Shown here: positions 3,883 through 62,900 of the stretch, in pieces
Layout of the letters: each line of letters starts with the position of its first letter
Numbering within the stretch: position 1 is the stretch's first letter
Source: Tritrichomonas musculus
Lineage: Eukaryota; Parabasalia; Tritrichomonadida; Tritrichomonadidae
Reading direction: 5' to 3'
DNA length: 64,000 nucleotides
Assembly: GCA_039105265.1 (NCBI GenBank)
Contig: JAPFFF010000007.1
Location: forward strand, 620,001-684,000
Notes under the pieces: model-generated
Told to the model about the DNA's origin: nothing
The model's input: the letters and a program-made list of their open reading frames with translations, nothing else
The model's database searches: none
Made by a program: the position numbers and the translations under genes

Positions 3883-3899
3883 ATGGAGGGAAATCTTGA
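3870..3899 (+). promoter_or_regulatory. Short upstream ORF overlapping the start of the pseudo-cyclase
   Basis: An ATG at 3870 opens a nine-codon frame ending at TGA 3897-3899, out of frame with and overlapping the main ATG at 3883. If the mRNA starts upstream of 3870, it would compete for initiation. If the leader is shorter than 13 bases, as trichomonad leaders can be, it has no effect. Confidence 0.3.
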
Positions 3900-43473: not shown

Positions 43474-45603
43474 TTACTTGAGTCCAAATCCTTCGGTGTA
43501 TTGTAATGCTAATTTCACCTTTTCAACAAGGTCTTCTTTTGTTTTATATTTGGGTAGTACTAATATACTAAAACATGTATGTGCTGTTGGAAGATTTTCA
43601 ACATTCTTACTTGCTTTAATCTTCAAATTTATTTTTCCAAGACCACCTATTGGAGCTCTGTCGGTGCCGGTTGCAAATTTCAAAAATCTTAATTTATCAT
43701 CTTTTGATAATGTTTTAAAGAATTCCCAGAACCATTTGATTTGTCTTGATTTATCTGAATATCCATTAGAACAAGTTGTGCCTGACTTTAAAGCTTCCCA
43801 ATCATAAACTTCAACACCGCTCACTAGAATATCCATTTCTTCTGGTTCAAGAAGTCGATAAGTTGAACAATTGCAAGTCATATCAAAACCTTTTTGAAAA
43901 GAGTTAAAAGGTTTCTCAATTTGTTTTATAAGTTTAAAGTCAATATAACTCTGAATATATTTTTCAAGATTCTGATTTGTAACTGGCGTTTCCATTGGTA
44001 TTTTATCAGAAATTGGAACTTCCTTTTCATCATCGAAAATTGAAACTGTGGCTGAAAATGTCAAATCAGCTTGTGAAACATCTCCGTCATTTTCTTTTAT
44101 TTCTCGGAGACTTAAGAAGCCTGATGCAAGATCTGCATCAATCTCCTTTAAATCATTTATATTTAGTTTTTTGTTGGGATATAGAAGACGTTTATAAACA
44201 ACAAGAGGAAATCGAATTGGTAGAAGTACTGAATTGTGTATTGCTAGTCCAACAACGCAGCCAATAAGGAAAAAAGATCGTTCAGTTTCAAATGTGCAAT
44301 GTGAAAACCACATGTACCGGTCGTTTGTAACGACAAACATTGAAAAATCAGGTGAAAAAAGTTTTTCTGTGATCGAATATAAGAATTCTCGACTTGGTCC
44401 GCCAACATCAACTGCCGCTTCTCCTTCGAAGACAACTTTCAATTTTTTCAGAAAAGATTGTGAATCTTGTCGTGAAAGTTGATTGATTGCGTCTCTAAGT
44501 AGAAATTTACGGCGTATCTTAATAGTCATATAGGATTCGCCTTTAAGGTTTGATTGGTTTGAAGTCATCATTGAATGTTGAGCCATTAGCTGCATTAATT
44601 GCTTAGATTCAGCTTTAGTTACACTCTCTTTTGTTTGCAAAGATAAAGCAAATGGACACTTTTTAAGCAAGCTGGCCCTTCTGCCATGGACATTTTTTCG
44701 TGTGTACAAATCCATTTCTTCGTCTAAGTTAAAGTATTGGTTGATCAATTCATCATAAAAACATGAAACAGGAATAGGGCTATCTGATTCACAGTTTGCT
44801 ACATAGAGAAAAGACATAGCTTTGAGAATTGAATGTATTGTTTCAGAATGAGGATTTGTATTAGGATGATCAGCATAATATGTTGCAATAGCTGTATGAA
44901 AGAAGCCAACCATTTGTTTTCGGAGAAAATGGAGTTGAGATAGCCAAGAACAAAAAACTTTTTTTTCTTCAGATTCTATTGAAGATAAAAGCTTGATTAA
45001 GGGAATAAGCACAGGAGGAGAAATCAAAGGAGAAATAATATCTGGAAAATAAAATAAAATGACAAAAATTCTCATGTTGAGATAAGAATTAAAAAACTTC
45101 TTGTTTCCAGTGACCCATTGAGCAGCAGCTGTTAAGCATGCTAACAGAATATTGCTTACATTTTCCATTTTAGTTAGTTTATCTGAAAACTCAAAAAAGA
45201 ATGAATCATCAATTCTTGAATTTGTAATAGAAAGAGGCATTTCATTTGAATTAAGAATGTGAGCAAAAATTTGTTTATCACTAAATATAGAATTGACTTG
45301 CTTAATGCAAATTTCAGGATTATTAAATTCAGACTGAGCAAAAGTCATTATAGAACTTAAAGTTTCTCTTTGTGTTTCTCCGTAAGTGATATTTTTCATT
45401 GATTCACATAATTTTGGTGATTTCTGATGATTATTAGCATATTGTTGAGCCAACTCAATTAAATCACCTTTTGATTCTATTTTTGATGATAATTTAAAAT
45501 CCTTACAACGCGCACATGATGTATTCTTGCATATGATTTTATCGCACCCAGTTGTAAATTGTTTGTAATAAAGGCGAGAGAGTTGATCGGAGGTGTTTGC
45601 CAT
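43474..45603 (-). CDS. UBE3A (E6AP)-type HECT E3 ubiquitin ligase
   Basis: From the ATG at 45603 the protein has 709 residues; a longer frame upstream begins with TTG and is rejected. Residues about 5-40 form an AZUL zinc-binding domain (RLYYKQFTTGCDKIICKNTS, then CARC), unique to UBE3A ([22 protein letters not shown]). The middle is helical. The HECT domain spans about 365-709: KVVFEGEAAVDVGGPSREF, then RYMWFSHC, the GLAIHNSVLLPIRFPLVVYKRLL stretch, FDMTCNC, GTDRAPIGGLG, and the catalytic LPTAHTCFSILVLP with Cys677. The C-terminal ALQYTEGFGLK mirrors UBE3A (AITYAKGFGML). It should accept ubiquitin from an E2 on Cys677 and pass it to substrates. It is divergent from the neighbouring SUMO-fold gene across 504 bases. 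Confidence 0.9.
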   Translation of the reverse strand: MANTSDQLSRLYYKQFTTGCDKIICKNTSCARCKDFKLSSKIESKGDLIELAQQYANNHQKSPKLCESMKNITYGETQRETLSSIMTFAQSEFNNPEICIKQVNSIFSDKQIFAHILNSNEMPLSITNSRIDDSFFFEFSDKLTKMENVSNILLACLTAAAQWVTGNKKFFNSYLNMRIFVILFYFPDIISPLISPPVLIPLIKLLSSIESEEKKVFCSWLSQLHFLRKQMVGFFHTAIATYYADHPNTNPHSETIHSILKAMSFLYVANCESDSPIPVSCFYDELINQYFNLDEEMDLYTRKNVHGRRASLLKKCPFALSLQTKESVTKAESKQLMQLMAQHSMMTSNQSNLKGESYMTIKIRRKFLLRDAINQLSRQDSQSFLKKLKVVFEGEAAVDVGGPSREFLYSITEKLFSPDFSMFVVTNDRYMWFSHCTFETERSFFLIGCVVGLAIHNSVLLPIRFPLVVYKRLLYPNKKLNINDLKEIDADLASGFLSLREIKENDGDVSQADLTFSATVSIFDDEKEVPISDKIPMETPVTNQNLEKYIQSYIDFKLIKQIEKPFNSFQKGFDMTCNCSTYRLLEPEEMDILVSGVEVYDWEALKSGTTCSNGYSDKSRQIKWFWEFFKTLSKDDKLRFLKFATGTDRAPIGGLGKINLKIKASKNVENLPTAHTCFSILVLPKYKTKEDLVEKVKLALQYTEGFGLK

Positions 45604-46107: not shown

Positions 46108-47013
46108 ATGACAATTACACTTAAACTTAATGAAAATGAAATCGGCTCAACAGAACCTTTTAGAGAGATTTCTGTCTACAGAACTAACACTTTTAATGCA
46201 ATTTTCGACGAATATGAGTCTCAAAAAAACATTAAGCATAAACAATTGCGATATATCTATCGAGGTCGTTTAATCAAAGGTACTGAAACGCCATCATCTC
46301 TTAGAATGAAGAATGGCGATACAATAAAGGTCATTTATTCAAACTCTAATAACCCAATAAATACTATAAACAAATCTGTTAAAATCACCCTTTCTCTAAT
46401 AGATCCCAATGGAATTGATCATCCATTTGAAATAAAGATTGATAGAAAAATTAAAGGTTGGCTAAAAAATAGCTGCCAGATACTTAATCTTGATTATGAT
46501 TCGTTAGCATTTTTTGTAAACGACAAGCTTATTGATGTTGAAAAGACACCTCATCAAATGAAACTTTCTAGTAGTGATAAGGTTTATGCCAAAGATCGTA
46601 TAAATGTTCAGAATGTTGATGATAACGCAATCAAATGTCATGAAGTGCAATCAAAATATTATTCACCCCCTACAAACACAACTCCAATTGCAAACACATC
46701 CAAAAATCCGGTAATTCTTAATCTTAATATTAAAAAGCCAAATAATGAAATAATTCATGTACAAATTGATTCAACTGAAACATTCAAGCACTGTTTTAAA
46801 CCGCTTCTAAAGAAATACAATATCAAAGTAACTGATTACCATTTCATTTATAACAATAAAAGTTTAAATGGAAACGATACTCCAAATGTTCTTCAAATGA
46901 AAGAAGGAGACACAATTAAGATGAAAAAGAAGAATGTTCAAAAGCATAATGACGAAGACTCGCATAATTCCAAATCTGAAGATACTCAAGCATTTACATG
47001 CCTTCTAATTTAA
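46108..47013 (+). CDS. Triple SUMO-fold protein with C-terminal CaaX box
   Basis: A 301-residue protein made of three ubiquitin-like folds of the SUMO/Rad60 SLD type. Domain 1 (about 2-77) ends LRYIYRGRLIKGTETPSSLR then MKNGDTIKV, very like SUMO ([27 protein letters not shown]). Domain 2 (about 90-165) is more divergent (SLAFFVNDKLIDVEKTPHQM). Domain 3 (about 200-277) has YHFIYNNKSLNGNDTPNVLQ then MKEGDTIKM. There is no C-terminal GlyGly, so it is not a conjugated modifier. The last four residues are CLLI, a CaaX box of the kind used by geranylgeranyl transferase I, so membrane anchoring is likely. I infer a membrane-tethered scaffold resembling in principle the prenylated MUB/UBL3 proteins, which have a single ubiquitin fold. 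Confidence 0.78.
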   Translation: MTITLKLNENEIGSTEPFREISVYRTNTFNAIFDEYESQKNIKHKQLRYIYRGRLIKGTETPSSLRMKNGDTIKVIYSNSNNPINTINKSVKITLSLIDPNGIDHPFEIKIDRKIKGWLKNSCQILNLDYDSLAFFVNDKLIDVEKTPHQMKLSSSDKVYAKDRINVQNVDDNAIKCHEVQSKYYSPPTNTTPIANTSKNPVILNLNIKKPNNEIIHVQIDSTETFKHCFKPLLKKYNIKVTDYHFIYNNKSLNGNDTPNVLQMKEGDTIKMKKKNVQKHNDEDSHNSKSEDTQAFTCLLI

Positions 47014-47106: not shown

Positions 47107-50100
47107 TCAAGCATGAGATATTTCTTCAATTGTCTTTCCTAATGTCTTTTTTATCTTTATAAGTGATCGAGTAATTCCTTCTTCAAGAAGTTGATCTTGA
47201 TCATAAGGTCTTGAAAGCAATCGATAATTTCCCAAATTATTAGCTTGTCTAAATGAAACAATAAAGACAGAGATATTAATAATGGTATTTATGATTAGTT
47301 TCCTGTTTTCCAGTGTATTTGTTTTACTTTTAGTAGCTAATGCATTTTTTATTTCTTCTAATTGATGAATTTTTTCTGTTAATTGTTCTAACTCGTCCAT
47401 CTTGTCCCTAAGTATCTGCTCTGGTTCTATTAATTCCGTTGTGGAATCAATCAATTTTTTCTTTTCTGTCAAACGTTCTGTGAGCTCTTTTGCTATCTCT
47501 TCATTTTCCGATTCAAGAGACACTGGTTCAATTAGTTGAGATTCATTGATTTCTTGAGCAATGGATATAAAAGAATCTTGGATTTCTTTCATTTTTTCTT
47601 CGTATATTTCATCTAGGTATTTGGCTTTGAGCTTTTCTTTAAGAGCTTCAAAGAATTTGAGTTTATATGCTTTTGAATATGCTGCCGGTTTAATATCATC
47701 AACTGATTTTTCGGTATTAGAATTTGTCGAAATATTCTTTTGTGATTCACCTGGTTTAGATATAGCTTGATCTTCTGAGTCGTCCATTCTTGATGAAACA
47801 TGGCTTTGTGAGTCACCTAATTTGGATGAAACATGGCTTTGTGAGTCACCTAATTTGGATGAAACATGGCTTTGTGAGTCACCTAATTTGGATGAAACAT
47901 GTTTTTGTGAGTCACCCATTCTTGATGAAACATTGCTTTGTGAGTCACCTAATTTGGATGAAACATGGCTTTGTGAGTCACCTAATTTGGATGAAACATG
48001 GCTTTGTGAGTCACCTAATTTGGATGAAACATGGCTTTGTGAGTCACCTAATTTGGATGAAACATGGCTTTGTGAGTCACCTAATTTGGATGAAACATTG
48101 CTTTGTGAGTCACCCATTCTTGATGAAACATTGCTTTGTGAGTCACCCATTCTTGATGAAACATTGCTTTGTGAGTCACCTAATTTGGATGAAACATGGC
48201 TTTGTGAGTCACCCATTCTTGATGAAACATTGCTTTGTGAGTCACCTAATTTGGATGAAACATGGCTTTGTGAGTCACCCATTCTTGATGAAACATTGCT
48301 TTGTGAGTCACCTAATTTGGATGAAACATTGCTTTGTGAGTCACCCATTCTTGATGAAACATTGCTTTGTGAGTCACCCATTCTTGATGAAACATTTCTT
48401 TGTGAGTCACCTAATTTGGATGAAACATGGCTTTGTGAGTCACCCATTCTTGATGAAACATGGCTTTGTGAGTCACCTAATTTGGATGAAACATGGCTTT
48501 GTGAGTCACCCATTTTTGATGAAACATTGCTTTGTGAGTCACCTAATTTGGATGAAAGATTTCTTTGTGAGTCACCTAATTTGGATGAAACATGGCTTTG
48601 TGAGTCACCTAATTTGGATGAAACATGGCTTTGTGAGTCACCTAATTTGGATGAAACATGGCTTTGTGAGTCACCTAATTTGGATGAAACATGGCTTTGT
48701 GAGTCACCTAATTTGGATGAAACATGGCTTTGTGAGTCACCTAATTTGGATGAAACATGGCTTTGTGAGTCACCCATTCTTGATGAAACATTGCTTTGTG
48801 AGTCACCTAATTTGGATGAAACATTGCTTTGTGAGTCACCTAATTTGGATGAAACATTGCTTTGTGAGTCACCCATTCTTGATGAAACATTGCTTTGTGA
48901 GTCACCTAATTTGGATGAAACATGGCTTTGTGAGTCACCCATTCTTGATGAAACATGGCTTTGTGAGTCACCTAATTTGGATGAAACATGGCTTTGTGAG
49001 TCACCCATTTTTGATGAAACATTGCTTTGTGAGTCACCTAATTTGGATGAAAGATTTCTTTGTGAGTCACCTAATTTGGATGAAACATGGCTTTGTGAGT
49101 CACCTAATTTGGATGAAACATGGCTTTGTGAGTCACCTAATTTGGATGAAACATGGCTTTGTGAGTCACCTAATTTGGATGAAACATGGCTTTGTGAGTC
49201 ACCTAATTTGGATGAAACATGGCTTTGTGAGTCACCTAATTTGGATGAAACATGGCTTTGTGAGTCACCCATTCTTGATGAAACATTGCTTTGTGAGTCA
49301 CCTAATTTGGATGAAACATTGCTTTGTGAGTCACCCATTCTTGATGAAACATTGCTTTGTGAGTCACCCATTCTTGATGAAACATTGCTTTGTGAGTCAC
49401 CTAATTTGGATGAAACATGGCTTTGTGAGTCACCTAATTTGGATGAAACATGGCTTTGTGAGTCACCTAATTTGGATGAAACATGGCTTTGTGAGTCACC
49501 CATTCTTGATGAAACATTGCTTTGTGAGTCACCTAATTTGGATGAAACATTGCTTTGTGAGTCACCCATTCTTGATGAAACATTTCTTTGTGAGTCACCC
49601 ATTCTTGATGAAACATTTCTTTGTGAGTCACCTAATTTGGATGAAACATGGCTTTGTGAGTCACCCATTCTTGATGAAACATTGCTTTGTGAGTCACCCA
49701 TTCTTGATGAAACATGGCTTTGTGAGTCACCTAATTTGGATGAAACATGGCTTTGTGAGTCACCCATTTTTGATGAAACATTGCTTTGTGAGTCACCTAA
49801 TTTGGATGAAAGATTTCTTTGTGAGTCACCTAATTTGGATGAAACATGGCTTTGTGAGTCACCTAATTTGGATGAAACATGGCTTTGTGAGTCACCTAAT
49901 TTGGATGAAACATGGCTTTGTGAGTCACCCATTCTTGATGAAACATGGCTTTGTGAGTCACCTAATTTGGATGAAACATGGCTTTGTGAGTCACCTAATT
50001 TGGATGAAACATGGCTTTGTGAGTCACCTAATTTGGATGAAACATGGCTTTGTGAGTCACCCATCCTTGATGAAACATTTCTTTGTGAGTCACCTAATTT

Positions 50101-53100
50101 GGATGAAACATGGCTTTGTGAGTCACCCATTTTTGATGAAACATTGCTTTGTGAGTCACCCATTCTTGATGAAACATTGCTTTGTGAGTCACCTAATTTG
50201 GATGAAACATGGCTTTGTGAGTCACCTAATTTGGATGAAACATTGCTTTGTGAGTCACCTAATTTGGATGAAACATGGCTTTGTGAGTCACCCATTCTTG
50301 ATGAAACATGGCTTTGTGAGTCACCTAATTTGGATGAAACATGGCTTTGTGAGTCACCTAATTTGGATGAAACATGGCTTTGTGAGTCACCTAATTTGGA
50401 TGAAACATGGCTTTGTGAGTCACCCATCCTTGATGAAACATTTCTTTGTGAGTCACCTAATTTGGATGAAACATTGCTTTGTGAGTCACCCATCCTTGAT
50501 GAAACATTTCTTTGTGAGTCACCTAATTTGGATGAAACATGGCTTTGTGAGTCACCTAATTTGGATGAAACATGGCTTTGTGAGTCACCTAATTTGGATG
50601 AAACATGGCTTTGTGAGTCACCCATCCTTGATGAAACATTTCTTTGTGAGTCACCTAATTTGGATGAAACATGGCTTTGTGAGTCACCTAATTTGGATGA
50701 AACATGGCTTTGTGAGTCACCTAATTTGGATGAAACATGGCTTTGTGAGTCACCTAATTTGGATGAAACATTTCTTTGTGAGTCACCTAATTTGGATGAA
50801 ACATGGCTTTGTGAGTCACCCATCCTTGATGAAACATTTCTTTGTGAGTCACCTAATTTGGATGAAACATGGCTTTGTGAGTCACCCATCCTTGATGAAA
50901 CATTTCTTTGTGAGTCACCTAATTTGGATGAAACATGGCTTTGTGAGTCACCCATCCTTGATGAAACATTTCTTTGTGAGTCACCTAATTTGGATGAAAC
51001 ATGGCTTTGTGAGTCACCCATTCTTGATGAAACATTTCTTTGTGAGTCACCTAATTTGGATGAAACATTGCTTTGTGAGTCACCCATTCTTGATGAAACA
51101 TTGCTTTGTGAGTCACCTAATTTGGATGAAACATGGCTTTGTGAGTCACCCATTCTTGATGAAACATTTCTTTGTGAGTCACCTAATTTGGATGAAACAT
51201 GGCTTTGTGAGTCACCCATTCTTGATGAAACATTGCTTTGTGAGTCACCTAATTTGGATGAAACATTGCTTTGTGAGTCACCTAATTTGGATGAAACATG
51301 GCTTTGTGAGTCACCTAATTTGGATGAAACATTGCTTTGTGAGTCACCCATTCTTGATGAAACATTGCTTTGTGAGTCACCTAATTTGGATGAAACATGG
51401 CTTTGTGAGTCACCTAATTTGGATGAAACATTGCTTTGTGAGTCACCCATTCTTGATGAAACATTGCTTTGTGAGTCACCTAATTTGGATGAAACATTGC
51501 TTTGTGAGTCACCCATTCTTGATGAAACATTGCTTTGTGAGTCACCCATTTTTGATGAAACATGGCTTTGTGAGTCACCCATTCTTGATGAAACATTGCT
51601 TTGTGAGTCACCCATTCTTGATGAAACATTGCTTTGTGAGTCACCTAATTTGGATGAAACATGGCTTTGTGAGTCACCCATTCTTGATGAAACATTTCTT
51701 TGTGAGTCACCTAATTTGGATGAAACATGGCTTTGTGAGTCACCTAATTTGGATGAAACATTGCTTTGTGAGTCACCCATTCTTGATGAAACATTTCTTT
51801 GTGAGTCACCCATTCTTGATGAAACATTTCTTTGTGAGTCACCCATTCTTGATGAAACATTGCTTTGTGAGTCACCTAATTTGGATGAAACATTGCTTTG
51901 TGAGTCACCTAATTTGGATGAAACATTGCTTTGTGAGTCACCCATTCTTGATGAAACATTGCTTTGTGAGTCACCTAATTTGGATGAAACATGGCTTTGT
52001 GAGTCACCCATTCTTGATGAAACATTTCTTTGTGAGTCACCTAATTTGGATGAAACATGGCTTTGTGAGTCACCTAATTTGGATGAAACATTGCTTTGTG
52101 AGTCACCTAATTTGGATGAAACATGGCTTTGTGAGTCACCTAATTTGGATGAAACATTGCTTTGTGAGTCACCTAATTTGGATGAAACATGGCTTTGTGA
52201 GTCACCTAATTTGGATGAAACATGGCTTTGTGAGTCACCTAATTTGGATGAAACATGGTTTTGTGAGTCACCTAATTTGGATGAAACATTGCTTTGTGAG
52301 TCACCCATTCTTGATGAAACATTGCTTTGTGAGTCACCTAATTTGGATGAAACATGGCTTTGTGAGTCACCTAATTTGGATGAAACATTGCTTTGTGAGT
52401 CACCTAATTTGGATGAAACATGGCTTTGTGAGTCACCCATTCTTGATGAAACATTTCTTTGTGAGTCACCTAATTTGGATGAAACATTTCTTTGTGAGTC
52501 ACCTAATTTGGATGAAACATGGCTTTGTGAGTCACCCATTCTTGATGAAACATTGCTTTGTGAGTCACCCATTCTTGATGAAACATGGCTTTGTGAGTCA
52601 CCTAATTTGGATGAAACATTGCTTTGTGAGTCACCCATTCTTGATGAAACATTGCTTTGTGAGTCACCTAATTTGGATGAAACATTGCTTTGTGAGTCAC
52701 CCATTCTTGATGAAACATTGCTTTGTGAGTCACCTAATTTGGATGAAACATGGCTTTGTGAGTCACCCATTCTTGATGAAACATTGCTTTGTGAGTCACC
52801 CATTCTTGATGAAACATTGCTTTGTGAGTCACCTAATTTGGATGAAACATGGCTTTGTGAGTCACCCATTCTTGATGAAACATTGCTTTGTGAGTCACCC
52901 ATTCTTGATGAAACATGGCTTTGTGAGTCACCTAATTTGGATGAAACATGGCTTTGTGAGTCACCCATTCTTGATGAAACATTGCTTTGTGAGTCACCTA
53001 ATTTGGATGAAACATGGCTTTGTGAGTCACCCATTCTTGATGAAACATGGCTTTGTGAGTCACCTAATTTGGATGAAACATGGCTTTGTGAGTCACCTAA

Positions 53101-54570
53101 TTTGGATGAAACATTGCTTTGTGAGTCACCCATTCTTGATGAAACATGGCTTTGTGAGTCACCTAATTTGGATGAAACATGGCTTTGTGAGTCACCCATT
53201 CTTGATGAAACATGGCTTTGTGAGTCACCTAATTTGGATGAAACATTGCTTTGTGAGTCACCTAATTTGGATGAAACATGGCTTTGTGAGTCACCCATTC
53301 TTGATGAAACATTGCTTTGTGAGTCACCCATTCTTGATGAAACATTGCTTTGTGAATCACTTAATTTTGATGAAGAATGATTTTGTGAATCACTTAATTT
53401 TGATGAAACATGATTTTGTGAATCACCTAGTTTTGATGAAACATAGCTTTGTGAATCACCTAATTTTGATGAAGCATAGCTTAATGAATCATTCAATCTT
53501 GATGACACGTTATCTTGTGAATCATTCAGTTTTGATTGTATATAGCTTTGTGAGTCACTCATTATGGACGATGCATAGCTTTGAGAGTCATTAAATGTAG
53601 ATGAGATATTGTTTTGTGAACTATTCATTTTTGATGAGGTATTACTTAATGAGTCATTCATTCTTGATGATGCATTGCTTAATGAATCATTCATTTTTGA
53701 TGAGATATTGTTTTGTGAATTATTCATTTTTGATGAGGTATTACTTAATGAGTCATTCATTCTTGATGATGTATTGCTTAATGAATCATTCATTTTTGAT
53801 GAAATATTGTTTTGTGAATCATTCATTTTATGTGTAGATTCATCTGATTGAGAATCATCGAAATTCTGCAAATCAGGATTAACATTGCTTTCAATGTTAT
53901 CGGTATTATCTTCGGTGTTATTGTTATTATTGGTGGAGTCATTATTGTTTTCATTATTATTACTGTTATCATTGTTAGTGACGCTAGGATTGGGCTCATC
54001 ATAATCGTATTCGGCGTATGAATCTGCATAAATATCTGAATGCATAGCAAAATTTCTTATTTGTTCACCGGTACGTTTTTTGAATTGACTATTGTTTAGA
54101 CCTAAGTTGAAATCTTCTCCATTTTTTGTTGATTTTTGAAGTGAACCTGACAATGATGTCAAATTGTAATAATTTATTAGTGAATGAGAACTATAAGCAG
54201 CTTTAAACAAAAGTTGATTATTTTCAAGATCAGTAGTTAATTTTTTATTCACTTGTGCTCTCAAACTATGGGTAATACTTTGAAAGCATTCCAAATCAGC
54301 GTCCCATGTTTCTCCAAGATATTCTTTTATATTGGGATATTTGTATTTATTGAATAAAGCTATAATTTTGGTTTTTGCTCCTTCACAAATTTCATTTAAT
54401 ATGTTTTGATATTTTTCCATAAAGTTCGGAAAATTATCATGGTTAAGCTTATATTTTTGAATTTCAGATAATTGGTTAGAGTCAATATTAGGAAAATCAT
54501 TTCGGAAATTGCTATTTAGGTATTCTTTTATTGTATCTAAGTATGCAGTAGTTTGTTCAATATCAGCCAT
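47107..54570 (-). CDS. Giant tandem-repeat protein with paralogous end domains (paralog 1)
   Basis: A 2487-residue protein of no recognised family. Residues 1-165 form a helical N-terminal domain (YLDTIKEYLNSNF, ETWDADLECFQSITHSL, LENNQLLFKAAYSSHS, STKNGEDF). An Asn/Asp-rich linker follows (190-240). Residues about 246-2264 are about 183 copies of an 11-residue unit, GDSQSxVSSKL or GDSQSxVSSRM; the first dozen or so copies at the N-terminal side are degenerate (NDSLSNTSSKM). A helical C-terminal domain follows (about 2275-2487) with coiled coil (ELEQLTEKIHQLEE) and IINTIINISVFIVSFRQA. Both ends match the neighbour at 55744-59349 in the same order. There is no signal peptide or membrane span. 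The frame is open through all 183 units, which argues for selection. Function unknown; the layout suggests a long spacer between two interaction domains. Confidence 0.75.
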   Translation of the reverse strand: MADIEQTTAYLDTIKEYLNSNFRNDFPNIDSNQLSEIQKYKLNHDNFPNFMEKYQNILNEICEGAKTKIIALFNKYKYPNIKEYLGETWDADLECFQSITHSLRAQVNKKLTTDLENNQLLFKAAYSSHSLINYYNLTSLSGSLQKSTKNGEDFNLGLNNSQFKKRTGEQIRNFAMHSDIYADSYAEYDYDEPNPSVTNNDNSNNNENNNDSTNNNNNTEDNTDNIESNVNPDLQNFDDSQSDESTHKMNDSQNNISSKMNDSLSNTSSRMNDSLSNTSSKMNNSQNNISSKMNDSLSNASSRMNDSLSNTSSKMNSSQNNISSTFNDSQSYASSIMSDSQSYIQSKLNDSQDNVSSRLNDSLSYASSKLGDSQSYVSSKLGDSQNHVSSKLSDSQNHSSSKLSDSQSNVSSRMGDSQSNVSSRMGDSQSHVSSKLGDSQSNVSSKLGDSQSHVSSRMGDSQSHVSSKLGDSQSHVSSRMGDSQSNVSSKLGDSQSHVSSKLGDSQSHVSSRMGDSQSHVSSKLGDSQSNVSSRMGDSQSHVSSKLGDSQSHVSSRMGDSQSNVSSRMGDSQSHVSSKLGDSQSNVSSRMGDSQSNVSSRMGDSQSHVSSKLGDSQSNVSSRMGDSQSNVSSKLGDSQSNVSSRMGDSQSNVSSKLGDSQSHVSSRMGDSQSNVSSRMGDSQSHVSSKLGDSQRNVSSKLGDSQRNVSSRMGDSQSHVSSKLGDSQSNVSSKLGDSQSHVSSKLGDSQSNVSSRMGDSQSNVSSKLGDSQNHVSSKLGDSQSHVSSKLGDSQSHVSSKLGDSQSNVSSKLGDSQSHVSSKLGDSQSNVSSKLGDSQSHVSSKLGDSQRNVSSRMGDSQSHVSSKLGDSQSNVSSRMGDSQSNVSSKLGDSQSNVSSKLGDSQSNVSSRMGDSQRNVSSRMGDSQRNVSSRMGDSQSNVSSKLGDSQSHVSSKLGDSQRNVSSRMGDSQSHVSSKLGDSQSNVSSRMGDSQSNVSSRMGDSQSHVSSKMGDSQSNVSSRMGDSQSNVSSKLGDSQSNVSSRMGDSQSNVSSKLGDSQSHVSSKLGDSQSNVSSRMGDSQSNVSSKLGDSQSHVSSKLGDSQSNVSSKLGDSQSNVSSRMGDSQSHVSSKLGDSQRNVSSRMGDSQSHVSSKLGDSQSNVSSRMGDSQSNVSSKLGDSQRNVSSRMGDSQSHVSSKLGDSQRNVSSRMGDSQSHVSSKLGDSQRNVSSRMGDSQSHVSSKLGDSQRNVSSRMGDSQSHVSSKLGDSQRNVSSKLGDSQSHVSSKLGDSQSHVSSKLGDSQSHVSSKLGDSQRNVSSRMGDSQSHVSSKLGDSQSHVSSKLGDSQSHVSSKLGDSQRNVSSRMGDSQSNVSSKLGDSQRNVSSRMGDSQSHVSSKLGDSQSHVSSKLGDSQSHVSSKLGDSQSHVSSRMGDSQSHVSSKLGDSQSNVSSKLGDSQSHVSSKLGDSQSNVSSRMGDSQSNVSSKMGDSQSHVSSKLGDSQRNVSSRMGDSQSHVSSKLGDSQSHVSSKLGDSQSHVSSKLGDSQSHVSSRMGDSQSHVSSKLGDSQSHVSSKLGDSQSHVSSKLGDSQRNLSSKLGDSQSNVSSKMGDSQSHVSSKLGDSQSHVSSRMGDSQSNVSSRMGDSQSHVSSKLGDSQRNVSSRMGDSQRNVSSRMGDSQSNVSSKLGDSQSNVSSRMGDSQSHVSSKLGDSQSHVSSKLGDSQSHVSSKLGDSQSNVSSRMGDSQSNVSSRMGDSQSNVSSKLGDSQSNVSSRMGDSQSHVSSKLGDSQSHVSSKLGDSQSHVSSKLGDSQSHVSSKLGDSQSHVSSKLGDSQSHVSSKLGDSQRNLSSKLGDSQSNVSSKMGDSQSHVSSKLGDSQSHVSSRMGDSQSHVSSKLGDSQSNVSSRMGDSQSNVSSKLGDSQSNVSSKLGDSQSNVSSRMGDSQSHVSSKLGDSQSHVSSKLGDSQSHVSSKLGDSQSHVSSKLGDSQSHVSSKLGDSQSHVSSKLGDSQRNLSSKLGDSQSNVSSKMGDSQSHVSSKLGDSQSHVSSRMGDSQSHVSSKLGDSQRNVSSRMGDSQSNVSSRMGDSQSNVSSKLGDSQSNVSSRMGDSQSHVSSKLGDSQSNVSSRMGDSQSHVSSKLGDSQSNVSSRMGDSQSNVSSRMGDSQSNVSSKLGDSQSHVSSKLGDSQSHVSSKLGDSQSHVSSKLGDSQSHVSSKLGDSQSNVSSRMGDSQKHVSSKLGDSQSHVSSKLGDSQSHVSSKLGDSQSHVSSRMDDSEDQAISKPGESQKNISTNSNTEKSVDDIKPAAYSKAYKLKFFEALKEKLKAKYLDEIYEEKMKEIQDSFISIAQEINESQLIEPVSLESENEEIAKELTERLTEKKKLIDSTTELIEPEQILRDKMDELEQLTEKIHQLEEIKNALATKSKTNTLENRKLIINTIINISVFIVSFRQANNLGNYRLLSRPYDQDQLLEEGITRSLIKIKKTLGKTIEEISHA
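47777..53831. repeat. 33-bp coding minisatellite, about 183 units
   Basis: Period 33 bases, e.g. GAGTCACCTAATTTGGATGA followed by AACATGGCTTTGT on the plus strand. About 170 units are nearly identical and those beyond about 53350 are degenerate. Two sites vary: CCTAATTTG (K-L) or CCCATTCTT (R-M), and ATGGCT (S-H), ATTGCT (S-N) or ATTTCT (R-N). Rare variants recur at multiples of the unit: CATTTTTGAT followed by the GAAAGATTTCT variant is at 48511, 49006 and 49765, that is 15 and 23 units apart, showing block duplications. A CATCCTT synonym is confined to about 50050-50970. Confidence 0.95.
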
Positions 54571-54575
54571 TATTG

Positions 54576-54582
54576 AGAATGA
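54576..54582 (-). promoter_or_regulatory. Initiator (Inr) candidate for paralog 1
   Basis: On the minus strand TCATTCT lies five bases before the ATG at 54570, fitting the trichomonad TCA-Py-T initiator. Confidence 0.45.
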
Positions 54583-54801
54583 TTACAATCGACAAAAAAA
54601 TTTTTTTTGCCGAACATAAAGAAGAAAATATCGATATATTTCAAGAATCAAATAATTTATGCCTATAAAATATTTCATTATAAACATTGTTTTACTTTAA
54701 ATTAAATTTATTTTCATTTTTATATGACCAATATCGGGATAGAATAATTTTTATATTTTGAATATGGTGTGCCAAATCATTTCAAAAAAAAAACTCTATC
54801 C

Positions 54802-55519
54802 AAAATTTTGATAGATTCCAAAATGCAGATTTTTCGGAAAATTTTCATTCAATTTTTTTTCAATTGAAAAAAGTACAAAATTTTGGAAAATCGCATTCAA
54901 TTTTTTTTTCCCGACGGTTTAATAGAAAATGGCATGAGGATAAAAAAAATAAAAAAGTTACTTAAAAACCTGATTATTTTTATTAAAACTTTAAAAATAC
55001 CTTTTTTTGTGACGGAACACTATTAGGATAACCTTAATTATCAGAATAGTATAAATTTGTTCATTTTTGTCGAATAAATGATAGAGCTAGTATTAATAAA
55101 ATTATTCCGCCATGAAAATAGAGTAAAACTAAAAAGGATTTCATCAATATTCAGGGCAAAAAAGGAAATATGCATAGTGAAAAACTTTAATATAAGAAGA
55201 ATACATGGATCAAATGCATTAATGCCATCATTAAAATCATACTCGTAAACATTTTTTGGAATATAATTAAGTAAAATGTTATATAAAAAGTTGAAATATT
55301 CTTAAGTCTGTAAAAAAAACGTAAAATCCAAGATCGTCATTACTTATGGCTTATGGGAAAAAACGCTTGTCTTTATAGTTGCTTGGTAAGCCGAAGAGTG
55401 ATTAATATTCGCCAAAGAAAACAAATATGAGTGTGGCCACAACCGTAAAAATAACATTAAAATATTTGACCTTAACGTTTTTTCTAAAAAATCTGCATTT
55501 GAAGATCTATCAAAATTTT
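54802..55519. repeat. Inverted repeats bounding 0.72 kb, possible decayed element
   Basis: 54802-54839 and 55482-55519 are inverted copies over 38 bases with about six mismatches (shared AAAATTTTGATAGAT and AAATGCAGATTTTT). The interior has no gene. It may be a decayed non-autonomous transposon. Confidence 0.55.
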
Positions 55520-55743
55520 CTACTTAATATTTCACGAAGTAGCTGAAAAATTATGTTTTCTCTCTTGTGTTCTCAATTGAGTTTTTTTAAAATGGTAATG
55601 ACTCAGATTTTTTATAAAATTATAATATCCATCTTTCCATTCATAAAAGTAAAAAAGAGTTAATAGTCATTTTGATTTCGTAAAAGTATATAAAGTTGAA
55701 GTTAAAAAAAAAAGTATAAATAAAATATTTAAAAAAAAAATAA

Positions 55744-58700
55744 TTATTCTTTAATATCACTAATTGTTTCACTAATTAATTTTTCTACAGCTTTCAATAC
55801 AGTTGTCATACTTTTTGATTCGATAAGTTTTTTGAAATTTTCAATTGTGCTTGTTGTTTTATAACTTAATTCTTTTATATTCATGAGTTGGGTTTTCTGA
55901 CGTATATTTTGAACAAAACTACAAATTGCGAACAAACATTCAATGACTGTTTGTGCTTCTTCATAAATGTTCTTAAATTCAAGTTTATAATCTTCCATTT
56001 TTTCATCGTGATCTTTGATTAATTTTATAAGTTGCGTTTTAGCTTGATTGCCATCTGCATGTCTCTGTTCTAGTTCGTATAATTCTTCTTGCTTACTTTC
56101 AAGTGCCTTTTCAGATTCCTGTAATTTTTCTCGTGCTTCTATCAGTTCTGGATCATCTTCAACTGATCTTGACTGAATGTTATTTAATTCTTCATTAAGA
56201 TGAGCAATGACGGCATCTCGATCATCTGTATCTACTTTAGATAAGTCAACTAGTTTTGAATCGGTAATCTTTTCGATTATTTCATTGGTTGATTCTTTTA
56301 ATTTACATGCTAGATCGTCTCTTGCATCTTCTAATTTACTGAGCTCGTCATCTTTTTGAGATTTGAGTTCCTTCAACTTACTAATTTGGGCTTTGTATTC
56401 ATTCGCAAATTTTTGTTTCGCTTCATCTTTTTTCTTTTGGGTAATCTCTGCGATTTTTTCGTTTCGTTTTTGATTGTAGGCTTCTCTATATGCGTTTCTT
56501 TTGGCTTCTTCTTCTAATCTCTTCTTTTCTGCTTCTTCTTCTTCTTGTCTCTTCTTTTCTGCTTCTTCCTCTAATCTCTTCTTTTCTGCTTCTTCTTCTA
56601 ATCTCTTCTTTTCTGCTTCTTCTTCTAATCTCTTCTTTTCTGCTTCTTCCTCTAATCTCTTCTTTTCTGCTTCTTCCTCTAATCTCTTCTTTTCTGCTTC
56701 TTCCTCTAATCTCTTCTTTTCTGCTTCTTCCTCTAATCTCTTCTTTTCTGCTTCTTCCTCTAATCTCTTCTTTTCTGCTTCTTCCTCTAATCTCTTCTTT
56801 TCTGCTTCTTCCTCTAATCTCTTCTTTTCTGCTTCTTCCTCTAATCTCTTCTTTTCTGCTTCTTCCTCTAATCTCTTCTTTTCTGCTTCTTCCTCTAATC
56901 TCTTCTTTTCTGCTTCTTCCTCTTGTTTCTTCTTTTCTGTTTCTTCTTCTTGTTTCTTCTTTTCTGCTTCTTCTTCTTGTCTCTTCTTTTCTGCTTCTTC
57001 TTCTTGTTTCTTCTTTTCTGCTTCTTCTTGTCTCTTCTTTTCTGTTTCTTCTTCTTGTTTCTTCTTTTCTGCTTCTTCTTCTTGTTTCTTCTTTTCTGTT
57101 TCTTCTTCTTGTTTCTTCTTTTCTGCTTCTTCTTCTTGTTTCTTCTTTTCTGCTTCTTCTTGTTTCTTCTTTTCTGCTTCTTCTTCTTGTTTCTTCTTTT
57201 CTGTTTCTTCTTCTTGTTTCTTCTTTTCTGCTTCTTCTTCTTCTTGTTTCTTCTTTTCTGCTTCTTCTTCTTGTTTCTTCTTTTCTGCTTCTTCTTCTTG
57301 TTTCTTCTTTTCTGCTTCTTCTTCTTGTTTCTTCTTTTCTGCTTCTTCTTCTTGTTTCTTCTTTTCTGCTTCTTCTTCTTGTTTCTTCTTTTCTGCTTCT
57401 TCTTGTTTCTTCTTTTCTGCTTCTTCTTCTTGTTTCTTCTTTTCTGTTTCTTCTTCTTGTTTCTTCTTTTCTGCTTCTTCTTCTTGTTTCTTCTTTTCTG
57501 CTTCTTCTTGTCTCTTCTTTTCTGCTTCTTCTTCTTGTCTCTTCTTTTCTGCTTCTTCTACTTGTTTCTTCTTTTCTGCTTCTTCTACTTGTTTCTTCTT
57601 TTCTGCTTCTTCTTGTTGTTGTTGCTTCTTCCTTGCAATATCTCCGCTATTTCCTGCTTTAATTTCAGTTTTCTTTTTGGCCTTCTTGTCCTCAGCTCCT
57701 TCTACTTTTCTTTGTTGTTTTTTCTTGTGTTTTTCTTCCTGTTCAGTTGAGTCAGTTTGCTTAATTTCTTTTTTTGAAAATGTTGCTGTTTCAGTGTCTT
57801 TATTAATTGATGAATCATTTATAATTGGGATTTCAGCCTTCAGATTAAAAGATGCTTTCATTGGCTGGAATTTCATATTTAGTGAAATTTTGTATTTCTC
57901 ATTATATATATTGTATAAGTCGTAGAAACTAATCAAATTACTGTTATTATTATCATTGATATTGCCAAATTTGGTGTTATCAACATTAGTGTTATCAGGA
58001 TTGGTGTTATTAGCATTGGTGTTATCAGGATTGGTGTTATTAGCATTGGTGTTATCAGGATTGGTGTTATTAGCATTGGTGTTATCAGGATTGGTGTTAT
58101 TAGCATTGGTGTTATCAGGATTGGTGTTATTAGCATTGGTGTTATCAGGATTGGTGTTATTAGCATTGGTGTTATCAGGATTGGTGTTATTAGCATTGGT
58201 ATTATCAGGATTTGTATTATTAGCATTGGTGTTATCAGGATTGGTGTTATTAGCATTGGTGTTATCAGGATTGGTGTTATCAGGATTGGTGTTATCAGGA
58301 TTGGTGTTATTAGCATTGATGTTATCAGGATTGGTGTTATTAGCATTGGTGTTATCAGGATTGGTGTTATTAGCATTGGTGTTATCAGGATTGGTGTTAT
58401 TAGCATTGGTGTTATCAGGATTGGTGTTATTAGCATTGGTGTTATCAGGATTGGTGTTATTAGCATTGGTGTTATCAGGATTGGTGTTATTAGCATTGGT
58501 GTTATCAGGATTTGTGTTATTAGCATTGGTGTTATCAGGATTGGTGTTATTAGCATTGGTGTTATCAGGATTGGTGTTATCAGGATTGGTGTTATCAGGA
58601 TTTGTGTTATTCGCATTGGTATTATCAGGATTTGTATTATTAGCATTTGCATTATTAGCACTGGTATTATTATCATCATCGGAATTATTATCACTATCAT

Positions 58701-59349
58701 CAGAATCATCAGAGCCTTTACCAAATTTTTCCCCATTTGTTGACTTCATATTAATTATCGTGTTAGAAGCATCCATAATTACTTCGTCATCATCCTCATC
58801 ATTGTCATCATGATATTCCATAAGCATCTCCTGATAATATTCCCAATTATCTTTAATTTTTAAGCATGAATATGACATGTATCCAATGGAAAACAACAGT
58901 CTTGAGTCAGATATTTTTGAACAAGTGCTACTGATTTTTTTATTAAGATCAGTTTGTTTACCAACTTTATGCTTATATTTATGATTTTTAATTTTTCCAA
59001 TAATCTTTGAAATATCATTAAAATTGGCTAAACTATCTTCCCAGTTTAATCCAAGTATATGAATACCCAATATTTTGGTATTTGTGTTTACATTCGTGAA
59101 TTTAATAAAATCATCAATAATTTCTTTCATCTTATCGATTGCCATTTTTTTACATGATTCAAGCGGCTGTTCCATTGTTTCAGCAAATGAAATGATTTCT
59201 TTTGCATTTGGATTAAAATCAGTCAAATATTTTATTTGACTTTCTGAAACATTGATTAAATCGTCTAAATCTTTATTGTTATTTAAAAAATAATCTTTAA
59301 TTTCTTCCATATAAGATTCGACAGTGTCAGCGTCTATCTCTTCGCTCAT
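55744..59349 (-). CDS. Giant repeat protein with paralogous end domains (paralog 2)
   Basis: The ATG at 59349 (MSEEIDADTVESYMEEIKDY) is chosen because it aligns with the start of paralog 1; another ATG at 59466 adds 39 hydrophobic/basic residues that paralog 1 lacks. This gives 1201 residues. N-terminal domain, about 1-180: ESYMEEIKDYFLNN, LNWEDSLANFNDI, DSRLLFSIGYMSYS, and STNGEKFGKG near 200. Then about 24 copies of NTNPDNTNAN (220-463), a Lys-rich linker, and about 41 copies of RLEEEAEKK / QEEEAEKKK (574-948), which by its E/K spacing looks like a single alpha-helix. The C-terminal domain (950-1201) has coiled coil and ECLFAICSFVQNIRQKTQLM. A cytoskeletal or spacer role is inferred. Function unknown. 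Confidence 0.75.
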   Translation of the reverse strand: MSEEIDADTVESYMEEIKDYFLNNNKDLDDLINVSESQIKYLTDFNPNAKEIISFAETMEQPLESCKKMAIDKMKEIIDDFIKFTNVNTNTKILGIHILGLNWEDSLANFNDISKIIGKIKNHKYKHKVGKQTDLNKKISSTCSKISDSRLLFSIGYMSYSCLKIKDNWEYYQEMLMEYHDDNDEDDDEVIMDASNTIINMKSTNGEKFGKGSDDSDDSDNNSDDDNNTSANNANANNTNPDNTNANNTNPDNTNPDNTNPDNTNANNTNPDNTNANNTNPDNTNANNTNPDNTNANNTNPDNTNANNTNPDNTNANNTNPDNTNANNTNPDNTNANNTNPDNINANNTNPDNTNPDNTNPDNTNANNTNPDNTNANNTNPDNTNANNTNPDNTNANNTNPDNTNANNTNPDNTNANNTNPDNTNANNTNPDNTNANNTNPDNTNANNTNPDNTNVDNTKFGNINDNNNSNLISFYDLYNIYNEKYKISLNMKFQPMKASFNLKAEIPIINDSSINKDTETATFSKKEIKQTDSTEQEEKHKKKQQRKVEGAEDKKAKKKTEIKAGNSGDIARKKQQQQEEAEKKKQVEEAEKKKQVEEAEKKRQEEEAEKKRQEEAEKKKQEEEAEKKKQEEETEKKKQEEEAEKKKQEEAEKKKQEEEAEKKKQEEEAEKKKQEEEAEKKKQEEEAEKKKQEEEAEKKKQEEEEAEKKKQEEETEKKKQEEEAEKKKQEEAEKKKQEEEAEKKKQEEETEKKKQEEEAEKKKQEEETEKKRQEEAEKKKQEEEAEKKRQEEEAEKKKQEEETEKKKQEEEAEKKRLEEEAEKKRLEEEAEKKRLEEEAEKKRLEEEAEKKRLEEEAEKKRLEEEAEKKRLEEEAEKKRLEEEAEKKRLEEEAEKKRLEEEAEKKRLEEEAEKKRLEEEAEKKRLEEEAEKKRQEEEEAEKKRLEEEAKRNAYREAYNQKRNEKIAEITQKKKDEAKQKFANEYKAQISKLKELKSQKDDELSKLEDARDDLACKLKESTNEIIEKITDSKLVDLSKVDTDDRDAVIAHLNEELNNIQSRSVEDDPELIEAREKLQESEKALESKQEELYELEQRHADGNQAKTQLIKLIKDHDEKMEDYKLEFKNIYEEAQTVIECLFAICSFVQNIRQKTQLMNIKELSYKTTSTIENFKKLIESKSMTTVLKAVEKLISETISDIKE
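56506..57626. repeat. 27-bp Glu/Lys-coding repeat array
   Basis: About 41 units of 27 bases (plus strand CTTCTTTTCTGCTTCTTCCT then CTAATCT), with 24-base and 30-base length variants that keep the frame. The left block (56570-56930) uses CTAATCT (R-L) and the right block uses TTGTTT or TTGTCT (K-Q, R-Q), so the array has two homogenised parts. Confidence 0.9.
57960..58690. repeat. 30-bp Asn/Asp/Pro-coding repeat array
   Basis: About 24 units of 30 bases (GTGTTATCAGGATTGGTGTT then ATTAGCATTG), coding NTNPDNTNAN. In two places, near 58270 and 58565, PDN units are doubled. Very low divergence indicates recent expansion. Confidence 0.9.
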
Positions 59350-59961
59350 TTTTGAAAATTTTGGTGTTTTTTTTAGAAAATTTTGGAAAATAGATTTATT
59401 TTTTTGCCATATTATCAATTTAATTAAAAAAGCATAAAAATGTAAAATTTTCTTTAAATAAAACATTTTAAAAATTGCTCAATTTAATATTTTAAGACTT
59501 AAATAATTGTTATTTTAAATTATAATATTAAAAAATCAAAGATATTTATATTTCAAAAGTTTCAATTATTTGATAAGGAATTCAATTAATTTTTTTCCTT
59601 TTTCATAAATATATTTACCAAAAATCGTTAATAATAAATATTTATTATAGAAATAGATTAAATATTTGTTACTGAAAATAAAAATATAAATATTTTTTGT
59701 TCTGCCTAAAATATCGCACAAAAATATGCAAATTTATTATTCAATCATATAAAAATATTGAATCTTCTTTTACAAAGGATTTTATGCTTTGGTATTTAAG
59801 TATAATAAATAAAGATGTAAATTTTAGATATAATAGTGAATTCTAGCAGTTTAATAATAAAATAAATAAAATAAAATAAAATAAAAGGAGCAAAAAGATA
59901 TTTTGTGAATAATTCAATGAACTATTTTTTAACTTTGTTGTATTCATTAATTGGTGAAAAT
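59350..59961. other. Spacer between paralog 2 and the ArfGAP gene
   Basis: 612 bases of AT-rich DNA with an AATAA/AAATA pentanucleotide tract near 59860-59885. 59350-59466 could be coding if the upstream ATG of paralog 2 were used. Confidence 0.4.
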
Positions 59962-62900
59962 TTAGAATGGATTTATGTCAGAGAAAGGATTGTTGCTGTT
60001 ATTTGTTGAAGACTTTCCTGAAGTTTTCTGCTGTTGTTGTGATGGCTGTTGTTGTTGTCTAGGCTTCTGTTGTTGTTGTGGTTGTGGCTGTTGTAATACT
60101 GTAGGTTTCTGGCCATAGCCGTACCCAGATCCGAACAACTCCGAGCTGGGAGCATTTCCTCTTGAAGGAGTTGTTCCAAACATAGCGTAAGGATCAATTG
60201 GAGCCTTCTTTTGTTGTTGTTGTTGTTGTTGAGCAAGTGGTGGTTTCTGTGGTGAATTTTTACTTGATGACTGTTGTTGAGGTTGAGGTTGAGACTGCTG
60301 TTGTTGTTGAGCTGGAGGAGCTGTAAATGAAGAAGTATCAAAGAAGTCCAATAAGTCATCTTTCTTCTTTGGAGCATTATCATTTGTGCTGTTTTGTGAT
60401 GGCTGAAGTGGAGATGAATCGAAAAGATTATAGATTGTGCCAGAATTGTTGTCTTCACGAGCTGGCATTGTTTTCATCATGTTGGCTTGATTCTGAAGAT
60501 TTGCATTTGGTTGTTGACTGTTATTTTGGAAGCCAAAGAGATCATCTGTGATGACTGCTGTACTAGCTGGTCCTGGTGGAGGCGCTGGACTGTCATTTGA
60601 GAAGAGATCATCTATTGATCCATGATTTGAAGTTGGAAAAGTAGAAAATCGATTTCCTGAAGCTGGTGCGCCTAATGAGTCAAAGAGATCATTGGAAGCA
60701 TTGGCTGAGAGTTCAGCTGATAAGTTCGGAGTTCTGTTGGCACTATTGTTGGTACTGGTATTTTGAGGTGCACCCTTGAATGGATCAAATAAAACGCTGC
60801 CACCATTATTATTGTTGCTTGTGCTATTTGTACTGTTCATGCTGACGTTGCTTGCTTTTGGCGAGAGTGTGGCTGGTGTTCCGCTAGAAAATGGATCAAA
60901 TAATCCGGTTGAATCTCCATGACCACCAAGTTGAAGCTTTGTATTGGCATCAGAACTGCCGAAAGGATCATATAAATCATTCGAGGATTGAGGCTTTATG
61001 TTTTGTGCTTGAGGTTGAGAATTATCACCGAAATTATCAAATAAATCAGTAGAGGCATTTGCTGAGACTTTCTGTTGTTGCTGTTGTTGCTGTTGTTGCT
61101 GCTGCTGCTGCTGCGGGGCTGGTGTTGAAAATGGATCAAATACATTGTTTTGTTTTTGTGGTTGAGCATTGTTGCTTTGTCGTGGCTTGCCTTCAAATGG
61201 ATCAAAGAGATCATCATCCTTCGCTGGTTCTTGTGGTTTGTTATTATTTTGTTCACTTTGATCTAAAATATCAAATAAGTCCTCGGAACTTTGTTGTTTC
61301 AATTGTTGTTGTTGTTGAGCTTTCTGAGATTGTGCTGCAAATGGGTTGTTTTGTTGTTGTGGCTGCTGATTATTGTCATTTTCTTGATCAAGCATGTCAA
61401 ATAAGTTACTTGAATTTTGTGGTTTTGAAGGTGGTTGTGATTGTTTTTGTTCTTGTGGTTGAGCAGCAAATGGATTCTTTCGTTGTGGTTGTGGTTGATC
61501 TTCTTGATCATCGTCGTTGTCAAGCATATCGAATAAATTTCCAGAACTTTGTGGTTTTGAAGGTGGTTGTGATTGTTTTTGTTCTTGTGGTTGAGCAGCA
61601 AATGGATTCTTTCGTTGTGGTTGTGGTTGATCTTCTTGATCATCGTCGTTGTCAAGCATATCGAATAAATTTCCAGAACTTTGTGGTTTTGAAGGTGGTT
61701 GTGATTGTTTTTGTTCTTGTGGTTGAGCAGCAAACGGATTCTTTCGTTGTGGTTGTGGTTGATCTTCTTGATCATCGTCGTTGTCAAGCATATCGAACAA
61801 ATTTCCAGAACTTTGTGGTTTTGAAGGTGGTTGTGATTGTTTCTGTTCTTGTGGTTGAGCAGCAAATGGATTATTTTGTTGTGGTTGTGGTTGATCTTCT
61901 TGATCATCGTCGTTGTCAAGCATGTCAAATAAGTTACTTGAATTATGTGGTTTTGAAGATGGTTGTGATTGTTTTTGTTCTTGTGGTTGAGCAGCAAATG
62001 GATTCTTTCGTTGTGGTTGTGGTTGATCTTCTTGATCATCGTCGTTGTCAAGCATATCGAATAAATTTCCAGAACTTTGTTGCTTTGAAGGTGGTTGTGA
62101 TTGTTTTTGTGGTGGTGGTTGAGCAGCGAATGGATTCTTTCGTCTTTGGTGTGGTTGTGGTTGATCTTCATCCTCTTCTTCATCTCCTTTTTGGTCTATC
62201 ATATCAAATACGCCACCTGAGCCTTTTGGCTTTGGAGATGGTTTCGATTGTCTTTGTAATTGTTCGGCAAATGGATTCCTTTGTTGTTTCTTACTAACAG
62301 GTTGACGAGGCTCATCATCATTGTCATCTGAGCCTGATGCAAAAGGTCTTTGATTTGATTCATTTTCATCATCTGATTGATCTTCTTTATGATTGCGCTT
62401 GTGGCTCATTTGGTGTTCCTCTTCATCACTGTTAAATTTGTCATTATCCATAAGGCCAGTATCTTGTCCTTCATCGTCATCATCATTAAATACAGAATTT
62501 TGAGCTTGTTGCATTTTCATGCGTCTCTTTTCTTGTTCAGAAAGATTGGCATCATTGTTCTTATGCTTATGGCCATGTTTCTCTTTTTGTGGTTTCTTTT
62601 TAGGTATATATAAAAGGTTGATTCCTGCATTGAAAATAGATTTTGCTTTTTCTTTGAAATTCTCAACATTTTTCTTAATTTGAGGAGCGATGCTTTGATT
62701 TTGTTTCTTCTTATGCTCTTTACGATCATGATGGCGTGGAGGTTCATCGTCAGATTCATCGTTATGATTAAAGTCATGATCGCTATCATCGTCATGATTT
62801 CTTTCGATATCATTCGATTTAAGAGCTTTTTGTTGTTGATGTTTTGGTTGTGGTTGTTGTTGTTTTGGTTGTGGCTTTTGTTTTATTCCTGAAAATGGAT

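Follow-up and report, generated by a model that had tools for sequence, protein, structure and literature searches.

Two adjacent minus-strand genes, here termed A and B, in a 64,000-nucleotide stretch of the Tritrichomonas musculus genome (contig C7:620001-684000; the window, to which coordinates without a contig label refer) carry a pair of end regions that is also present in two other genes of this organism, C (1535 amino acids, aa) and D (908 aa). Together with a fifth open reading frame (ORF), E (350 aa), which has the C-terminal region only, they form a small paralogous family, in whose full-length members (A to D) an N-terminal domain, a hydrophilic repeat middle and a C-terminal region follow one another. 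The family appears to be undescribed, each full-length member setting a different repeat spacer between the same two ends, and a literature search covering titles and the starts of abstracts, with subscription papers outside its scope, returned no paper describing it. The combination of shared ends and changing middles suggests linkers whose ends do the work, and we infer from the sequences a role as soluble cytosolic linkers or scaffolds. T. musculus isolate EAF2021 is a commensal of the mouse gut (PMC11978803); the genome searched comprises 193.4 Mb in 746 contigs, and labels of the type C4:590451 give contig and position within it.

Gene A (P0001; 47107..54570, minus strand) is a single unbroken ORF of 2487 aa. 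Its N-terminal region (54082..54570, residues 1-163, of which approximately residues 1-151 make up the profiled domain) leads through an Asn/Asp-rich linker visible in the sequence (53863..54081) into an array of 183 Ser-rich 11-mers (47773..53862; commonest unit SSKLGDSQSHV), and the protein closes with a C-terminal region consisting of a Y..AY head, a predicted coil and a helical tail (47110..47691). An intergenic gap of 1173 bp (54571..55743) separates A from gene B (55744..59349, minus strand; P0002 from Met40), which encodes 1201 aa; the B frame is open upstream to an ATG at 59466, the conserved start being Met40 at 59349. In B, the N-terminal domain (58723..59349, residues 1-209) is followed by an acidic linker, again visible in the sequence (58669..58722), an Asn/Thr/Pro/Asp 10-mer array (57979..58668; NTNPDNTNAN), a short stretch, M, that resembles D and E but is weak for B (57823..57939), a charged 9-mer array that by composition would be a single long helix (56503..57612; EKKKQEEEA), and a C-terminal region with the same head, predicted coil and tail (55747..56502). 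The unit count of the A array, the size of the gap and the unrelatedness of the two middles are as the initial annotation had described them. Long open frames, a consequence of the stop-free repeat units, run antisense to the arrays of both genes (47790-53594, plus strand, 1934 aa; 56490-57662, plus strand, 390 aa); they are probably not genes.

The proposal that A and B share their ends was borne out by both held-out and subfamily profiles. Held-out profiles recovered the N-terminal regions of all four full-length members and the C-terminal regions of all five sequences, above shuffled sequences (1000 per sequence) and above 600 control reading frames; the latter ran from stop to stop over at least 60 aa in six frames of non-family loci and the window, many of them not being genes and the set including ORFs retrieved for weak coil matches. 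N-terminal scores were 43.8 (A), 86.6 (B), 74.9 (C) and 79.5 (D) bits against best shuffles of 6.8-9.7 (A 9.4, B 9.7), and C-terminal scores were 41.4 (A), 49.2 (B), 67.8 (C), 149.1 (D) and 76.0 (E) bits against best shuffles of -0.5 to 8.5 (A 6.4, B -0.5). In the run with control frames, the N-terminal region of A scored 37.4 bits (best shuffle 10.4, best control frame 7.9), its C-terminal region 39.2 bits (6.7 and 14.7, respectively) and the C-terminal region of B 49.0 bits (9.6 and 11.1); overall, the weakest true member stood above the best control at both the C-terminal (38.9 versus 16.8 bits) and N-terminal ends (37.4 versus 12.3 bits). Profiles of the two subfamilies defined below aligned with one another nearly end to end (E 5.5e-14 for the N-terminal and 6.5e-7 for the C-terminal regions). 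With the last 70-77 residues of the C-terminal region alone, C, D and E remained clear of shuffles, A was marginal (14.5 versus 13.9 bits) and B fell below its best shuffle (10.2 versus 10.9 bits), A and B still exceeding the control frames (7.1 and 6.0); the Y..AY head alone gave separation in B, D and E, though a modest one in A and C. The held-out M profile was clear in D (29.9 bits) and E (37.1 bits), lay under its best shuffles in B (11.3 versus 14.5 and 13.6 bits), was unsupported in C (0.9 bits) and gave nothing of note in A. The N- and C-terminal ends were rejected as copies of one another (hhalign probability 0.2%, E 0.33).

As anticipated, the ends fall outside known families, both in Pfam and by sequence against solved structures, save for a generic coiled coil. 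Pfam returned no match at E <=0.001 for any of the four N-terminal or five C-terminal regions (best E 0.0026 and 0.014, respectively); the whole of D matches Plasmodium_HRP above cut-off (58.5 versus 45.8 bits), a match through its array (residues 505-645) that we read as low complexity. Against solved structures, the C-terminal profile matched the coiled coils of keratin 1 (E 2.7e-4) and Hook3 (E 6.9e-4), which are likewise read as generic, while the N-terminal profile gave a single match at E <=10 (E 0.18). A fold search of the PDB with a low-confidence N-terminal model yielded no match at E <=0.001, the best being uninformative (E 0.94, template modelling score ~0.16). The maximum Kyte-Doolittle mean over 19 residues was 1.54 (A), 1.22 (B), 0.76 (C), 1.23 (D) and 0.89 (E), the usual threshold for a membrane span being 1.6, and no 19-residue stretch of A to E resembles such a span. 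Given the lack of Pfam matches, the coiled-coil matches and the lack of a membrane span, these proteins would be soluble, helical and probably self-associating linkers or scaffolds.

A coat on lipid droplets or membranes, in which the A 11-mer would form a perilipin-like amphipathic helix and the N-terminal domain a perilipin-like or BAR-like bundle, is exceedingly unlikely. Amphipathic 11-mer repeats are a feature of the perilipin family, and the 11-residue period of A fits such a coat, as do Pfam matches of the B N-terminal domain to Perilipin (PF03036, 15.3 bits) and of the C N-terminal domain to BAR_3 (PF16746, 17.4 bits). Each of these matches, however, is below its cut-off (33 and 31.7 bits, respectively) and found in one of four members, and both families were rejected. 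The 11-mers were also rejected as perilipin-type, since among A to E only A has such an array and the helical moment of its unit is no better than that of shuffles (0.269 versus a mean of 0.215, P 0.31). Matches to the APPL1 BAR domain in the low-confidence-model fold search (E 2.1 and 2.3) are uninformative.

The trees resolve the family into two old subfamilies, A/C and B/D/E. B groups with D (87) in the four-gene N-terminal tree and with D and E (100) in the five-gene C-terminal tree, leaving A with C in both, which indicates that the two ends travelled together. A and B are therefore old paralogues of different subfamilies rather than a recent duplicate, and gene C and the D/E pair are, on these trees, dispersed relatives of the two neighbours. 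Identity in the C-terminal region is 41% between A and C, 55% between D and E and 25% between A and B, the latter two being 22% identical in the N-terminal region. Synonymous divergence (dS) between the A and C C-terminal regions is near saturation (2.55, with a nonsynonymous divergence, dN, of 0.51); between D and E it is 0.49 with a dN of 0.30, and because this pair is relaxed, E may be decaying. The initial annotation had seen in A and B a duplicated gene whose central spacer was replaced; the low identity of their ends and the pairings in both trees rule out a swapped centre after local duplication.

The middles themselves look to have been grown in place, because the A and C arrays and five of seven B 10-mer matches are each confined to one gene and the edges of the A array are, by eye, degenerate. 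The A array (~2030 residues, 35% Ser) is built from only 27 distinct DNA units with higher-order periods of 66 and 99 bp. The two B arrays span 230 (10-mer) and 370 residues (charged 9-mer), the C middle consists of ~1050 residues of Thr/Pro/Glu/Gly repeats (27% Thr, 20% Pro), and D has 282 residues of a KAEEAR-type 6-mer, a type also found in the 79 residues of E. The charged arrays of B, D and E contain K+R at 0.32-0.33, D+E at 0.32-0.43 and V/I/L/M/F/W/C/Y at 2-4%. A genome search with the arrays, which scored the best candidates only so that gene-private status holds among those scored, placed 43 of 46 matches to the A array within gene A, all 28 matches to the C array within the C locus (both strands) and five of seven matches to the B 10-mer within B. 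Accordingly, the A and C arrays and, for the most part, the B 10-mer were rejected as captures from another gene. KKAEEA-type arrays are common elsewhere in the genome, and among the best 116 of 652 candidates the matches in sequences other than D and E are almost always to the array portion of the query. Because the B arrays flank the stretch common to D and E, there may be two alternative positions in the linker at which arrays have expanded, instead of a single cassette having been exchanged, an idea that depends on the weak M match in B.

The range of array lengths bears on a possible role as a ruler, in which repeat number would set the distance between two cytoskeletal attachment points. 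Two conserved ends around a repeated middle would suit a ruler, and with a rise of 0.15 nm per residue ~42 nm would be bridged by the charged helix of D (282 aa) and ~55 nm by that of B (370 aa). Array length, however, runs from 282 to ~2030 residues among full-length paralogues, a range of ~7-fold (E has 79), and the few distinct units and higher-order periods of the 183-unit A array point to continuing unequal exchange, which would not hold length; A and C, being flexible by composition, could not set a distance. The ruler role raised in the initial annotation is thus very unlikely, as the A units look freely recombining. A scaffold for a condensate or network, with the arrays acting as weak stickers and the C-terminal coil gathering chains into a gel or dense body, seems improbable. 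The 183 near-identical units of A with a coil at one end would be consistent with it, and the repeat linker protein PYCO1 phase separates through sticker motifs (PMC10288592), but unit types differ wholly between the subfamilies and the charged single-helix arrays of B, D and E are not typical stickers.

Constraint within the arrays was estimated as the ratio of nonsynonymous to synonymous differences (pN/pS) in a residue-blind manner, comparing each codon with its counterparts at distances of one, two or three periods and using the wrong frames as control; ratios from units chosen by residue pattern are biased and were set aside. Because the units of an array are not independent of one another, the values serve as description rather than as tests. 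Ratios were 0.21-0.25 for the B 10-mer (wrong frames 0.84, 1.29), 0.17-0.24 for the D 6-mer (undefined, 1.51), 0.05-0.10 over few sites for the E array (0.58, undefined), 0.63-0.72 for the A 11-mer (0.96, 1.05) and 0.64 with few changes for the short C array (0.45, undefined). Residue content is thus kept in the B 10-mer and D 6-mer arrays while synonymous sites change.

We favour, with a probability of roughly 45%, the reading that A to E are soluble two-ended linkers whose C-terminal coil self-associates and whose spacer is kept for its physical type. The C-terminal region would self-associate through its coiled coil and the helical N-terminal region would bind a partner, while the middle, as a solvated spacer, would determine reach and hold neighbours at a distance. 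In A and C this spacer would be a long, flexible chain rich in Ser and Thr; in B, D and E it would consist mainly of stiff charged helix, with the spans given above for D and B and with a non-helical Asn/Thr/Pro array added in B. Slippage or unequal exchange may create and expand repeat units inside the individual genes, with the result that unit sequence and length would drift while the ends, and residue content in the B 10-mer and D 6-mer, are kept. In line with this reading, the main spacer material follows subfamily (flexible in A/C, charged helix in B/D/E). We consider rather doubtful a further step, in which selection would hold constant the two end domains and the spacer's physical class and leave the repeat unit itself to be invented gene by gene; the family would then be a naturally occurring set of exchangeable linkers, with material properties rather than sequence of the connector as the heritable trait.

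Several observations weigh against the linker reading. With five genes on one tree, the association of spacer type with subfamily amounts to one contrast, and because arrays also occur in unrelated genes the presence of a long array does not by itself imply a spacer role. No N-terminal end was found in the sequence retrieved around E, so that not every copy is two-ended. Structure models, although all-helical in keeping with the linker reading, are poor and too weak to rely on (N-terminal: predicted local distance difference test, pLDDT, 56.0 and predicted template modelling score, pTM, 0.56; C-terminal: pLDDT 50.4, pTM 0.20). The pN/pS of the charged B 9-mer (0.25-0.42) is hardly below one of its wrong frames (0.43, 1.25), and the main C array shows no constraint (pN/pS ~9 at a pS of ~0.03; wrong frames 0.11, 0.69), nearly all its codons ending in A and its irregular units fitting the 9-base offset poorly.

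It is quite possible that the family consists of ordinary two-domain, partly coiled-coil proteins with a tolerant linker, in which arrays expand owing to the abundance of repeats in this genome and the middles have no further role; a selected spacer is only slightly more probable than neutral growth of this kind. Arrays are present in unrelated genes (a Ras-like GTPase at L029:249-1814, an ArfGAP protein at 59962-63999 and the kinase-like L064), 42.67% of the T. musculus genome is masked as repetitive (PMC11978803), the A array is weakly constrained, and the main C array, with almost no synonymous change, looks DNA-driven and young. Neutral growth accords less well with a long hydrophilic middle in all four full-length members (shortest array stretch 282 residues, in D), with the agreement between main middle type and subfamily, and with the B 10-mer and D 6-mer arrays, which hold their amino acids despite synonymous change. 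If neutral growth is the right account, the family illustrates cleanly how a conserved protein can tolerate rampant growth of repeats. If the middles are exchangeable, as the linker reading would have it, they would provide a natural comparison of spacers that differ in stiffness and length but are held by one and the same pair of ends, and a direct test of selection on low-complexity repeats for physical behaviour. The family also supplies concrete candidates for domain-free structural proteins of trichomonads.

Among known systems, single alpha-helix (ER/K-type) spacers resemble the middles of B, D and E, which consist of alternating Glu and Lys/Arg blocks; blocks of this kind form lone stiff helices. 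On composition, long acidic and basic blocks with few large hydrophobic residues are present in B, D and E and not in A and C, so that such spacers would occur in three of the five members and represent one of several kinds of middle in the family. The trypanosomatid FAZ10 and other high-molecular-mass proteins are likewise very large, repeat-rich, coiled-coil proteins of a flagellate (PMC5358337). FAZ10 has an annotated ORF of 13,005 bp, two coiled-coil domains and a demonstrated location in the flagellum attachment zone (PMC5358337); the present family is set apart from it, by description rather than by sequence, in having two kept ends over unrelated middles. Parabasalid costains are trichomonad structural proteins described as predominantly alpha-helical and likely coiled coil, and 44 costa-fraction proteins have been described without conserved domains (PMC13071381). 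Such helical, coiled-coil character is not specific: in the present family the C-terminal region matches coiled coils of a generic kind, and the models are all-helical but poor. Costains were identified by their location in the costa whereas A to E are known from genes alone, a comparison again by description, and the available part of the costain account makes no mention of shared ends over different arrays (PMC13071381). Alveolins are described as protist membrane-skeleton proteins with multi-repeat domains; in A to E, conservation lies in the ends instead of the repeats, and the Pfam searches with the ends turned up no alveolin family.

Several genome matches were rejected as members. C4:590451 (E 6.1e-4 with the N-terminal domain of C) is transposase-like by eye and was missed by the N-terminal profile, and C42:400595 (E 1.2e-5 with the C-terminal region of B) is a GTPase-like ORF by eye, to which the family profile gave 4.2 bits as a whole and 11.3 bits over the best-matching stretch, with no N-terminal profile match listed. 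Also excluded were C3:2845855 (E 0.042) and C56:810192 (E 0.08), as well as C1:1810192, C7:846064, C43:482430, C59:319907, C34:400485, C15:800445, C18:67622 and C5:5300056 (E 0.3-3.4), none of which is among the N-terminal profile matches listed; matches at E 0.1-10 are more numerous than those examined singly. Protein-database searches gave no match at E <=10, but B's own protein was absent from the B-query result, so they say little on other trichomonads. A viral or bacterial origin was rejected, as scans of viral and prokaryote contigs, which sense mainly close relatives, found no relative of the family.

Convergent to A lies a gene for a small protein with two ubiquitin/SUMO-like stretches (46108-47013, plus strand; Rad60-SLD, E 4.1e-20), adjoined by one for an AZUL-domain HECT E3 (43474-45603). 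The ArfGAP gene (59962-63999, minus strand; E 3.3e-43), whose ORF starts at the window edge, encodes a long tail containing a 132-bp tandem repeat in 5.8 copies. Adjoining gene D on contig C10, the ORF at L029:249-1814 encodes a GTPase of the Ras family (Pfam Ras, E 1.2e-24) with a long internal NENINNN array. At L064 (C2:8124760-8125960), an ORF that is protein-kinase-like by eye adjoins a same-strand KKAEEA-type array, the two probably forming one protein; the 1201 bases examined there hold no N-terminal profile match. An ORF at 14403-16655 (plus strand) combines Myb-like DNA-binding and DDE_1 transposase domains and is a mobile-element or domesticated-transposase gene. The large protein encoded at 3883-9009 (plus strand) has several hydrophobic spans by eye, PAS-like (26 bits) and TmcB-like TPR (22.7 bits) matches below their cut-offs (27 bits each), and an end that recalls a cyclase remnant. 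Pfam matches above cut-off identify FragX_IP (CYFIP) at 19279-22854, Casc1_N and Casc1_C at 34695-36722, CNDH2_N and CNDH2_C (condensin II CAP-H2) at 1591-3324 and DNA_pol_E_B at 11666-12799.

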